Positions 12,131 through 63,519 of a DNA stretch of 64,000 nucleotides are shown piece after piece. Position 1 is the first letter of the stretch. Every line of letters begins with the position of its first letter. Location of the stretch: positions 1-64,000 of the IMG/VR virus record IMGVR_UViG_3300042887_005324. One strand, 5' to 3'. Under the pieces are notes generated by a model. It saw only the letters and a list, made by a program, of their open reading frames with translations. It was not told the origin of the DNA and did not search any database. Source of the DNA: a virus. The translations under genes and the position numbers were made by a program.

Positions 12131-12523
12131 ATGAAATATATTAAATCATTTAACGAGTCTAATAAATCTAATAAACCAAACATTAAAAAATTAGATATAG
12201 ATGGATTTTTAGTTTTCATGGGTAGAGATGCTTTATCTAATGATTACTTGACTTTTGAAGTTGCTGATAATGAAGATTATTGGATGCATGCAAAAGGAGT
12301 ACCTGGTTCACATGTTGTGATCAGGGTAGATAGTAAGATACCCGGATTGGAAACAATTAAAAAGGCTGCAAAATTAGCAGCAAAGAACTCAAAATCTTCT
12401 GATGAGCAAGTTAATGTGGTTTATTGTAAAAGAAAGTTCGTGAAAAAAGAACCAGGAATGAATGTTGGTCAAGTTAAGGTAGATTATACAAATAGCTATG
12501 AAATAACTGTTTCTAAAAATTAA
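12131..12523 (+). CDS. Stand-alone NFACT-R domain protein (RqcH/Tae2 C-terminal domain family)
   Basis: 130 residues. After an N-terminal MKYIKSFNES peptide, the rest matches the NFACT-R (DUF814) domain in order: GFLVFMGRDALSNDYL, DYWMHAKGVPGSHVVI, AAKLAAKNSKS, VVYCKRKFVKKEPG and GQVKV. In RqcH/NEMF this domain sits next to the tRNA/ribosome-binding parts that act on stalled 60S/50S subunits; the NFACT-N and coiled-coil parts are absent here. A free domain could compete with or redirect host rescue factors. The first 10 residues resemble the shared capsid-targeting-like peptide. Confidence 0.8.
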   Translation: MKYIKSFNESNKSNKPNIKKLDIDGFLVFMGRDALSNDYLTFEVADNEDYWMHAKGVPGSHVVIRVDSKIPGLETIKKAAKLAAKNSKSSDEQVNVVYCKRKFVKKEPGMNVGQVKVDYTNSYEITVSKN

Positions 12524-12529
12524 TATATA
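12520..12529 (+). promoter_or_regulatory. TTAATATATA box, 6 nt before ATG of 12536
   Basis: The box overlaps the end of the upstream gene (its TAA lies inside) and ends 6 bases before the next ATG, suggesting an internal promoter for the peptidase gene. Confidence 0.45.
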
Positions 12530-12535
12530 ACTTTA

Positions 12536-13912
12536 ATGAAAAAGACTTATTTTACCCCTGGTGTTGTTGAGATTTTTAATAAATTAAAAAGTGCACCAGC
12601 ATTCAAAGAATTGATTCTGAAGTTAGAAGAAGCAACTAAATTACCTGGTGATAAAATTGAATTTTCCGTAAGTAAATATGACCTTTCAAAACCTATTATC
12701 AAGAATATTTTAGGACCAGACGCATTTAGTGATAGTTTGATAGATGAGTTTATGAGAACTTTCAAGTTCAAAGTAGATGACATTGATAGAGGATATAAAT
12801 CAACTACAACCTATACGTCATCAGCAACAACTGGAAGTGCACCTTTCAAGAAAACTGTTAGCCAACCAGCTAAACCTCAAAGAATTTTCAAAGAAGAAGA
12901 TTATATCACACCAAGAGAATTTAAATTTGAACCCAATAATATTAGAGAGACATTTATTTCACTAGTCACTGAAACTTATCCTATGGGACATGAGGATGAG
13001 GTTGTTAAATATATCACACCTGGTCTAAAAAAAGACCAACATGGAAATTACTATACTATTATTGGAGATTCCGACACATCTTTTACTTGTCATTTAGATA
13101 CTGCTTCTAGAACTAAAGAAAAGATTAAATTAGTTCAGTATAAAAAAGATGGACAAGATTTCATAATGAGTGATGGTACCACTATTTTAGGAGCTGATGA
13201 TAAATCCGGTGTTGCTATATTGATGTATATGATACATCATAATGTACCAGGTGTTTATTGGTTCTTCATGGGTGAAGAAAGAGGCGGTGTTGGTTCAGGA
13301 AAAGTTGCTAATGATATTGAAAGTTATCCTTTTATGTCAAAAATTAAGAAAATGGTTTCATTCGACAGAAGAAACTATTATTCAGTAATCACATCACAAT
13401 TTGGAACTGTTTGTTGTTCAAATGAATTTGGTGATTCTTTGTGTAAAGAACTAAATAAGAGTGGATTAAAATTAAATTTAGATCCAACTGGTGTTTTTAC
13501 GGATTCTGCTAACTTTATAGATATTATACCAGAGTGTACGAATGTTTCAGTTGGTTATTTTAATGAACACACTTCTGAAGAGCTACAAAATATTACATAT
13601 TTAGAGAGATTAGCAAAAGCATGTGTTGCATGTGACTGGGATAAACTAGCTATTAAAAGAAAAGTAGGATTTGATGAGGATATCAAAAGTAAATATTTTA
13701 GATTGATCAAACAATTCAATAGAACTGTATTCTTTAACAAAGACTCTATAAAAGGCGTTGACGGTAAATTATTAATCAATTTAGAAGTTGATAGTAGCGA
13801 TCCTGATCATTTATATGAAGATTTAACATCATTACAAAAACTATTTTCACAACATAGATTAGATCCAGATATTTTGTTTGAAGGTGATAAAATAAAAATT
13901 GAACTTACATAA
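12536..13912 (+). CDS. M20/M28/M42-type zinc aminopeptidase-like protein (copy 2)
   Basis: 458 residues. Residues ~1-130 are an extra N-terminal region with a Ser/Thr/Pro-rich linker (90-115). The peptidase core follows: H186-x-D188 in TCHLDTA, D221-D222 in LGADDKSG, E247-E248 in FMGEERG, D277 in VSFDRR, and a final His in YFNEHTSEE. The core is clearly homologous to 4757-5836, so the phage carries two diverged copies. All metal ligands are kept, which argues for catalysis. Substrate unknown. Confidence 0.78.
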   Translation: MKKTYFTPGVVEIFNKLKSAPAFKELILKLEEATKLPGDKIEFSVSKYDLSKPIIKNILGPDAFSDSLIDEFMRTFKFKVDDIDRGYKSTTTYTSSATTGSAPFKKTVSQPAKPQRIFKEEDYITPREFKFEPNNIRETFISLVTETYPMGHEDEVVKYITPGLKKDQHGNYYTIIGDSDTSFTCHLDTASRTKEKIKLVQYKKDGQDFIMSDGTTILGADDKSGVAILMYMIHHNVPGVYWFFMGEERGGVGSGKVANDIESYPFMSKIKKMVSFDRRNYYSVITSQFGTVCCSNEFGDSLCKELNKSGLKLNLDPTGVFTDSANFIDIIPECTNVSVGYFNEHTSEELQNITYLERLAKACVACDWDKLAIKRKVGFDEDIKSKYFRLIKQFNRTVFFNKDSIKGVDGKLLINLEVDSSDPDHLYEDLTSLQKLFSQHRLDPDILFEGDKIKIELT

Positions 13913-13913
13913 T

Positions 13914-62012: not shown

Positions 62013-62017
62013 CCCCT

Positions 62018-62073
62018 CTAAAAATAGTATTTTTAGACCGACACTCTCAAGAAATTGAGAGTGTTTCTTTTTT
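62018..62073 (+). terminator. Double hairpin terminator, second with GAAA loop
   Basis: CTAAAAAT/ATTTTTAG hairpin (62018-62036), then ACACTCTCAA/TTGAGAGTGT (62041-62064) closed by GAAA and followed by TTCTTTTTT. Confidence 0.9.
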
Positions 62074-62121
62074 AAAGAATATTCAATTTATTAATGTAAA
62101 TGAGAAAGAGTAATGTAGATT

Positions 62122-63519
62122 CTATAATTTGAAATCTGTTCCACCTAAAGCACCATAATTCTTATCAAGTTCATCTTGAAGCTTTTTAACATTGTCTTGC
62201 ATAGATTGAAAGTAATCTTTGTATCCGTGTTCAGGAGCTTCTTTTTCTTGTGGTTTTTCTTTATCGAGTTCCCACCAGTCAAAATCTGGATCATCGTAGT
62301 AACCAAGTGGTGTCCAAGTAATTGTACCTTTATCATCGGTTTTCATCAAACTTGGTTTAGTAATACTTAGTCTATCTTTTTTATTAGATCTTATAAATAC
62401 TAAAGCATCTTTAGTGTATTCACCACCTTTATCTGCCCAGAATCCAAGTAAATCGTACATATTATCTTTAATAGTATTCATGTCGGATTCAATTTCTCTA
62501 AATGCTCTGTTGAATAGTGATTGATGTTCGTTCCATATCTCTCTTAGGGTAATTCTTTTACCATTTGAACTAGCAATTTTTAATTGATTATGAGCAGAAT
62601 CTAACTTATCGCCCCAATATCCACCAAACATAACCTGATCAGATGAAAATTCTCTTGGCATTTGACCATATTCATCTCTACTTATATCATATAGTAGGTA
62701 TAAACGAGAACATTTATCTTCTGGTGGTAATTTCTTGAAAATAACAATATAGAGTAGATATCTTGGAAAGTCTTGAATAAGTTCTTTAGTTTGAACTTCT
62801 TTTTGCTTACCTGGTAAATTGAATAGTTTTTGCCACCAATTCTTTACTTCTCGAGTTGTTTTCTTAGTTCTATACCAATTATATCCACCATAATAAGATC
62901 CTTTAGTGATATATTTTTCAATCCAATCTAAATTCTTTTTAAGTGCCATCATCCAAGGCATATCAGATGAGTATTTTATTGCAGCTTTATATGTTTTAGG
63001 TTTAACAGCCATTATTTCATTATCGTCATAAATAACATCAAATTCAGACTTATCAACAATAACATCATCTTCAAATAGAATATCCCAACCACGAGTCTGA
63101 TCACCCATTGTGTTCAATTTTCTAACATTCTTTTCAACTTCTTTAATTTCTAATTTATTCCAATCTTCTTTTGTAAAAAAGATAACACTGCAATTTCTAT
63201 CAGTTTGATTTTTGTTAATTACAAGAAATTTTAGTCCTTCAACATTAGATCTGTGTCTGATATCAGATACTGCCTCATAAAAGTTATTTAATCCAATAAA
63301 TCCAACAATATAATATCTTAAATAATATTTCTTATCAGATTTATTATATTTAGTATATTCTTTTTCTGATAATATTTTTTTAGTATCAAAATTTGGTAAA
63401 ATCCATTTAGTTTCACATCCTCCAACTTGACCTGGTATATAGGCAGTAATATCTTCTACTTTTTGAATAGTCTCGAGAACTTTATCATTAAAATCTTCAA
63501 ATAGCTTAAGATATTTCAT
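62122..63519 (-). CDS. Hypothetical protein with targeting-like peptide
   Basis: 465 residues from ATG 63519, chosen over 63549 because it gives MKYLKLFEDFND, a clear copy of the shared peptide, and overlaps the upstream stop as TAATG. Middle part rich in Trp and Lys (SYYGGYNWYRTKKTTREVKNWWQK cut short: several W), C-terminal Pro/Glu/Lys linker. No motif recognised. Probably a late internal protein. Confidence 0.58.
   Translation of the reverse strand: MKYLKLFEDFNDKVLETIQKVEDITAYIPGQVGGCETKWILPNFDTKKILSEKEYTKYNKSDKKYYLRYYIVGFIGLNNFYEAVSDIRHRSNVEGLKFLVINKNQTDRNCSVIFFTKEDWNKLEIKEVEKNVRKLNTMGDQTRGWDILFEDDVIVDKSEFDVIYDDNEIMAVKPKTYKAAIKYSSDMPWMMALKKNLDWIEKYITKGSYYGGYNWYRTKKTTREVKNWWQKLFNLPGKQKEVQTKELIQDFPRYLLYIVIFKKLPPEDKCSRLYLLYDISRDEYGQMPREFSSDQVMFGGYWGDKLDSAHNQLKIASSNGKRITLREIWNEHQSLFNRAFREIESDMNTIKDNMYDLLGFWADKGGEYTKDALVFIRSNKKDRLSITKPSLMKTDDKGTITWTPLGYYDDPDFDWWELDKEKPQEKEAPEHGYKDYFQSMQDNVKKLQDELDKNYGALGGTDFKL

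Follow-up and report, generated by a model that had tools for sequence, protein, structure and literature searches.

The closest described relatives of the system analysed here are the internal proteins IpI, IpII and IpIII of phage T4, in which unrelated bodies follow a short N-terminal peptide with two aromatic residues three positions apart and an (L/I)xE motif recognised by the gp21 protease. Mutagenesis of the IPIII signal assigned targeting to residues 4 and 7 and processing to residues 8 and 10, and the gp21 cleavage site lies behind L/I-x-E (PMC9026906). Of these proteins, IPI acts by blocking a restriction enzyme, and IPIII is required on one E. coli strain (PMC3012670, PMC9391042). 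Here we analyse a similar peptide in the viral record IMGVR_UViG_3300042887_005324 (174,041 bases), whose bases 1-64000 constitute the window. An initial annotation of the window had listed 18 clear and three looser copies of this peptide in front of unrelated bodies and had read them as a head-packaged, injected effector cargo. Our analysis indicates that the peptide is very probably a T4-type capsid-targeting sequence, and that its cargo would be loaded into the head, cut and delivered on infection.

As in T4, a gp21-family protease, a scaffold and a gp23-type capsid protein are encoded by the same phage. Distinct from T4, with its three such proteins, the present system is predicted to comprise 100-150 tagged proteins; the aromatics usually lie at positions 5-7 and 8-10, after an I/L-K-K stretch, the cargo includes RNA and nucleotide enzymes, and the protease is fused to the scaffold. 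The ejection proteins of the jumbo phages phiKZ, SPN3US and 201phi2-1 offer a second comparison, with many head proteins processed after glutamate by a gp21-related protease. Their propeptides, however, are mostly long and in phiKZ are cut at S/A-x-E (PMC5694885, PMC9026906), whereas the clade signal described here is short, follows one shared motif and carries L/I/V-x-E (scored as [LIVFM]xE), mostly 8-17 residues into the protein. Phage-injected polyvalent proteins (PMC5512222) likewise bring varied activities for conflict with the host, but as large multidomain chains, in contrast to the mostly small proteins here, each with a short common tag. Tad1, injected by phiKZ (PMC13282480), is an anti-CBASS activity arriving with the DNA, comparable to an Acb1-like cargo protein described below, yet it is a different protein.

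The record was placed by major capsid protein identity. Its capsid protein is 65-67% identical to those of the 635- and 642-kb phages and 49-51% identical to its counterparts in the 636- and 735-kb phages, the next being the Lak phages at 30%. These four phages are the largest Mahaphage genomes, with replication predicted in Bacteroidetes (PMC7162821). Capsid identity thus places the record with the 634-735-kb Mahaphage genomes, and it is therefore a fragment of a genome that is probably much larger. Upstream, the sequence is continued by a further contig, L007, which has 100% capsid identity and belongs to the same phage.

To avoid circularity, an 11-column profile was trained only on the complete 635-kb (W01) and 735-kb (W04, LR756501.1) phages and then applied to all other genomes; it replaced an initial motif model that had drifted to general N-terminal composition. 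The profile consensus is approximately [I/L/V]-K-K-[Y/F]-x-x-[F/Y]-[I/L/E]-[N/K]-E, with Y/F/W in column 0 and F/Y in column +3 at more than 95% of sites. Two backgrounds were computed for each genome, internal methionines and shuffled N-termini, and expectations are given below in that order. The profile is enriched at N-termini, the internal-methionine control passing at 0.4% of sites. The initial annotation had proposed a scan of N-termini beyond the window, and over the whole record the profile returned 21 of 171 proteins at 8 bits or more, against 1.0 and 1.4 expected (binomial p ~4e-24). In the training genomes, the numbers are 104 of 939 proteins (4.2 and 7.5 expected) for the 635-kb phage and 155 of 996 (3.8 and 5.3) for the 735-kb phage. 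All counts given here depend on a simple gene caller and on the single threshold of 8 bits. Among held-out genomes, a 462-kb relative, of which 400 kb was read, has 33 of 532 (3.0 and 4.1), and 79 more related contigs together have 94 of 1093 non-redundant proteins (3.2 expected). The signal is scarce or absent in T4-like relatives that have been isolated: Tenacibaculum phage PTm1 has 5 of 308 (0.7 and 1.2), Chryseobacterium phage MA9V-1 has 3 of 257 (0.4 and 0.6), and PAU and cyanophage S-RSM4 have one protein each. Lak-B1, with 8 of 587 (1.6 and 2.8), is doubtful. A scan for the pattern at the DNA level, independent of gene calling, gives 19 matches in the 735-kb phage against 2 with the reversed pattern, and 0 matches in G000, where the exact pattern is too strict. 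Judged by the profile, a T4-type targeting peptide is present on approximately 11-16% of proteins in two complete huge phages, and the real scale would be about 100-150 tagged proteins per complete genome.

The copies in the window are as follows, with profile scores, cleavage-type motifs at the residue given, and positions of a promoter-like motif, TTTAATATATA, relative to the gene start.

12131..12523 (+): NFACT-R domain protein, MKYIKSFNES, 7.1 bits; PF05670 E 6.5e-15, domain from residue 24; orthologue in the 635-kb phage 16.6 bits
13914..14378 (+): signal protein MNLKRFKQLLQED with acidic body, 9.4 bits; LQE at 12; 635-kb orthologue 14.7 bits
17787..19187 (-): signal protein MITSYKDFLFES, 16.8 bits; LFE at 11; 635-kb orthologue 19.7 bits
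20872..21636 (-): weak signal MLIKFNEYL, 6.3 bits; orthologues 10.4 and 17.1 bits; virion-type promoter motif
21690..22952 (+): signal protein MIKSYYDFLLES, 15.5 bits; LLE at 11; virion-type promoter motif at -31
26672..27343 (-): HAD-like protein, signal MKYLNNYNSF, 12.2 bits; IFDFDDTL seen by eye, no Pfam HAD match
31878..32369 (-): signal protein MKYLKKFESF with acidic body, 13.2 bits
32387..32560 (-): zinc-ribbon mini-protein MNHLHKFTNFITES, 8.4 bits; ITE at 13; promoter motif at -32; PF02591 3.9e-5 (below cut-off)
32596..32745 (+): weak copy MKLYEFCDFIVE, 3.1 bits; IVE at 12; promoter motif at -13
33695..35950 (+): protein of 751 amino acids, weak copy MSLSKKYSDFLLMRLFES, 6.0 bits; LFE at 17
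44127..44945 (-): lysozyme, signal MKYLSNYSNY, 10.7 bits; INE at 29; promoter motif at -13; PF00959 2.6e-28 (residues 130-264)
49079..50023 (-): signal protein MGKIKSYQLFLED, 14.5 bits; FLE at 12; promoter motif at -14
53654..54331 (-): weak copy MKHNKLILEFTEF, 3.4 bits; orthologues 17.8 bits (735-kb phage) and 3.0 bits (635-kb phage)
54364..54672 (+): weak copy MKIRKFYEAEE, 3.2 bits; promoter motif at -28
55159..55656 (-): DUF5856 protein MKKFSDFKPVRRINE, 9.1 bits; INE at 15; PF19174 2e-13
55665..55895 (-): doubtful copy MKRFTKIVENVES, -0.4 bits; IVE at 9; promoter motif at -41
55942..57030 (+): degenerate or lost copy MKELSLISEA, -10.7 bits; 635-kb orthologue MKYIKPYSNFSINEA, 12.0 bits
58411..58659 (+): signal protein MKFVKKFDSFIKES, 18.5 bits; IKE at 13; promoter motif at -28; 635-kb orthologue 19.6 bits
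58661..60199 (+): protein of 512 amino acids MSIKDFDKFFEEA, 10.0 bits; orthologue 18.4 bits
60210..62012 (+): ankyrin-repeat protein MISNYIDFKLNLNEN, 8.3 bits; LNE at 14; PF12796 5e-12
62122..63519 (-): signal protein MKYLKLFEDFNDKVLE, 10.0 bits
63519..64000 in the window (-): signal protein MIKKYKEYIKES, 21.4 bits; start past the window at record position 64481 (L001:519-1481); promoter motif at -12; 635-kb orthologue 19.4 bits

All 21 gene starts listed in the initial annotation coincide with real open reading frame starts. Of its 18 clear copies, 13 score 8.3-18.5 bits with the profile built from the two other phages; the other five fall below 8 bits, namely 12131 (7.1, backed by its orthologue), 33695 (6.0), 54364 (3.2), 32596 (3.1) and 55895(-) (-0.4). 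Its looser copies at 21636(-) and 54331(-) are weak here and have at least one passing orthologue, while 55942 lacks the signal in this phage and retains it in the 635-kb orthologue. The list was also incomplete, and further copies lie at the window edge or beyond it, at 63519-64481(-), 82565(-), 94690, 95250, 106097 and 169428.

The bodies behind the shared peptide are indeed unrelated. With the first 25 residues removed, the record's 21 proteins fall into 20 families, the 155 of the 735-kb phage into 131 and 103 of the 635-kb phage into 98. Synonymous codon use within the signal is about the same as in the gene bodies, so that conservation acts at the protein level rather than on a DNA element. 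In line with this, orthologues retain the signal pattern while its letters vary, and some keep the signal and others swap it. Specifically, 24 of 29 distinct NFACT-R orthologues carry aromatic-x-x-aromatic followed by E before the same domain; the dephospho-CoA kinase begins with MIRVGITGEMGSGKS in the 635-kb phage and with MIITFESFINKPVTVAITGGIASGKS in the 735-kb phage; and the RNA ligase has the signal in the former and lacks it in the latter. As these comparisons suggest, the signal is gained or lost as a unit. These data bear on the explanation that the pattern arises from chance, from the coding bias of an AT-rich genome, from gene duplication or from a DNA element conserved where genes start. 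In its favour, K, N, I, F and Y codons are abundant in this genome of 30% GC, and about three of the 21 matches in the record, those at 41811, 124584 and 136382, are probably accidental. For the whole set, this explanation is refuted and can be given practically no weight, given controls of 1.0-1.4 against 21 observed, little or no signal in other AT-rich T4-like phages, unrelated bodies and synonymous codons as in the gene bodies.

The profile recovers the T4 signal blind. In held-out T4, five of 258 proteins match it, namely IpI, IpII, IpIII, gp61.1 and one weak match, and Y4, F7, I8 and E10 of the T4 peptide MKTYQEFIAE fall on the conserved profile columns 0, +3, +4 and +6, the residues that mutagenesis had implicated in targeting and processing. 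For the cleavage motif, members were picked on the seven aromatic-core columns only, such that the glutamate was not selected. [LIVFM]xE then occurs no more than four residues after the aromatic core in 49% of members in the 735-kb phage, 53% in the 635-kb phage, 54% in the 462-kb phage and 35% in the record, compared with 7-9% of other N-termini. As a separate observation, gp61.1 (54 amino acids, MKTFKEFIKED; AF158101.6 18966-19130(-)) is the top T4 match at 19.3 bits, above the known internal proteins, and its N-terminus makes it a candidate for an unrecognised head protein.

Partners for head assembly are present in the same phage, beginning at the left end of the window:

74..502 (+): 3' end of a fused gp21-like protease and scaffold; the whole gene is L007:6103-8232
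589..2349 (+): gp23-like major capsid protein (PHROG 138, 1.2e-22), predicted propeptide end between HSINE and NAY

The capsid propeptide site, INE followed by N, is kept in 80 of 80 relatives examined and is presumed to be the reference substrate of the head protease. The protease motifs GEFDHP and VSSRAAG align with GELNHP and VSSRGLG of T4 gp21, and hhalign against gp21 gives an E value of 2.7e-5; the Pfam S80 match of the 735-kb relative lies above the cut-off (9e-7). The S77 family search of the record itself returned no protease, the gene being split at the contig edge and complete in L007. The scaffold half has [LI]AE every 14 residues, a spacing as would be expected for a protein to be shredded, and L007 also encodes a T4-type portal (PF07230, 1.2e-58). 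A ClpP-like protein at 57091-57816(-) had been considered as the head protease and was set aside after the gp21-like protease turned up.

Tagged genes also share a promoter class. The motif TTTAATATATA lies upstream of 82 of 138 tagged genes and 207 of 1030 other genes (odds ratio 5.8, p 1e-20), mostly 12-40 bases from the start, for example at -12 to -14 or near -30 (21690, 44945(-), 50023(-)). The same association is seen on the 79 contigs held out from training (39 of 55 tagged versus 159 of 678 other genes, p 1.7e-12). In the record, the motif precedes all six genes of at least 800 amino acids, which are large virion genes, and is not found before the DNA polymerase, ribonucleotide reductase and SSB genes. 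Conversely, a host-like TAnnTTTG element is rarer in tagged genes (10 of 138 versus 180 of 1030, p 0.0013). The company of genes it keeps suggests that TTTAATATATA is likely the late promoter of the clade; the T4 late promoter TATAAATA was not enriched. These associations bear on the possibility that the peptide directs proteins elsewhere in the infected cell, to the inner membrane, a replication compartment or a partner, with a merely convergent likeness to T4. In general, a short N-terminal stretch rich in basic and aromatic residues can mediate binding to a membrane or a partner, and sequence alone does not reveal localisation. We nevertheless consider this highly improbable, since the T4 internal proteins are recovered blind, a protease-type xE site lies behind the signal, and the signal genes belong to the virion-gene promoter class, whereas the record's main replication genes carry neither signal nor motif.

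Most tagged bodies have no known domain. In the record, the recognisable domains are NFACT-R, phage lysozyme, ankyrin repeats, DUF5856 and an Acb1-like 2H phosphoesterase (record 169428-169961; PF23474 1.5e-10, HVT and HIT motifs) behind MVIKSYQTFLES. Pfam thus agrees with the initial annotation on the first three; its zinc ribbon stays below the cut-off, its ferritin-like protein is DUF5856, its HAD enzyme is seen only by eye, and its SCM-core protein was not confirmed. Cargo domains in the 635- and 735-kb phages include a T4 Rnl1-family RNA ligase, a SMODS-associated NUDIX, a second Acb1/2H protein and dephospho-CoA kinase, CCA-adding/poly(A) polymerase head domains and PPK2 in both phages, and radical SAM, cytidine-deaminase, DHH, methyltransferase and glycoside hydrolase 108 proteins. 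The glutamyl-tRNA synthetase of the 735-kb phage (10.6 bits, catalytic domain from residue 27) was included by the looser first model. The effector cargo proposed by the initial annotation is therefore backed by homology for some members, the Acb1-like protein and other enzymes, while their presence in particles and injection are inferred. The composition suggests a first-response kit for counter-signalling, RNA repair, ribosome rescue and nucleotide supply, each enzyme's role being putative, and such a kit fits the roles of T4 IPI and IPIII. A link to packaged ribosomal proteins was dropped: basic-aromatic N-terminal extensions are reported for bS21 of huge phages (PMC7162821), and bS21 of the record (127056-127250, L004:7056-7250; PF01165 3.1e-9) lacks the signal.

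The cargo also bears on whether the peptide is a prohead core-binding signal on proteins that serve head assembly, like T4 gp67 and gp68, or that stay in the particle uninjected. The same scaffold and protease logic and the virion-type promoters would apply, many of the bodies are short acidic chains without a known function, and in two of four genomes the signal genes form clusters. Against this, many recognisable bodies are enzymes acting on RNA and nucleotides, 131 unrelated families far exceed the needs of head assembly, and T4 proteins bearing such a signal are injected (PMC9391042). We therefore regard an assembly role as unlikely, if less so than another cellular location.

Taken together, the capsid-targeting reading of the initial annotation is supported by the signal and its protein-level conservation, blind recovery of the T4 proteins, coincidence with the mutagenesis columns, the cleavage consensus, the protease, scaffold and capsid partners, and the promoter class shared with virion genes. 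We propose that the two aromatics, three apart on a short basic stretch, would dock newly made proteins onto the prohead scaffold core, that the gp21-like protease would cut after the nearby (L/I/V)xE, freeing the mature body and dismantling the scaffold, and that the cargo would remain beside the DNA until delivered at infection; docking, packaging, cutting and injection are each predicted steps. The most likely use would be as an immediate toolkit against host defences, comprising the Acb1-like protein, RNA repair, tRNA maintenance, ribosome rescue and nucleotide supply. Several points weigh on the other side. Approximately half of the signals have no strict [LIVFM]xE directly behind the aromatic core, and just three such internal proteins are annotated in T4 itself, such that 100-150 is an extrapolation. 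The gp21 assignment of this phage's protease lies below the Pfam cut-off (S77, 1.2e-3), and its AlphaFold model is too poor to help (pLDDT 46). Some members, among them a lysozyme with a membrane-like segment, are unusual as soluble head cargo, and our search turned up no virion proteome for any member of the clade.

We consider it somewhat more probable than not that, together with their DNA, the largest known phages inject a ready-made starter proteome of over 100 different proteins, among them anti-CBASS-like, tRNA-repair, ribosome-rescue and nucleotide enzymes, and that a single exchangeable peptide at the N-terminus addresses them all. No earlier report of such a signal in huge phages was found in the open-access literature, most subscription papers not being covered. 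The signal would offer a sequence-only route to predicting which of the largely unknown huge-phage genes act in the first minutes of infection. The number of T4-type proteins per phage that are known or predicted to be packaged in the head would rise from a handful to more than 100. The signal also suggests that large capsids serve protein delivery besides DNA, makes many uncharacterised proteins testable as counter-defence factors, and is itself a candidate tag for directing proteins into phage heads.

The 735-kb phage has another short peptide, DPYGEE-x-W. It is present in 94 called proteins and at 109 places, in 41 of the 94 at the C-terminus (loci L178-L214; for example LR756501.1 474651-476339 and 552104-555800), and is absent from the 635-kb phage. 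It is spelled in 49 distinct DNA forms and is therefore conserved as protein; this codon variation argues against a mobile DNA repeat. The two peptides are associated, 40 of the 94 proteins also having the N-terminal signal (odds ratio 5.1, p 2e-11), and some of the open reading frames that carry DPYGEE-x-W resemble fragments of capsid, protease and scaffold genes.

Other features of the phage were noted by eye. The helicase, replicative primase-helicase and ribonucleotide reductase genes (window 27884-30868, 36063-39151 and 40208-44075) each appear to be split by an intein enclosing a homing-endonuclease-like open reading frame. A RuBisCO-like large chain at 9088-10317(-) and a TROVE/Ro60-like protein at 45445-47007(+) are both unusual in phages. 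A peptidase-T/M20-like protein occurs three times in this one phage, at 4757-5836(-), 12536-13912(+) and record 91289-92407(-) (L002).

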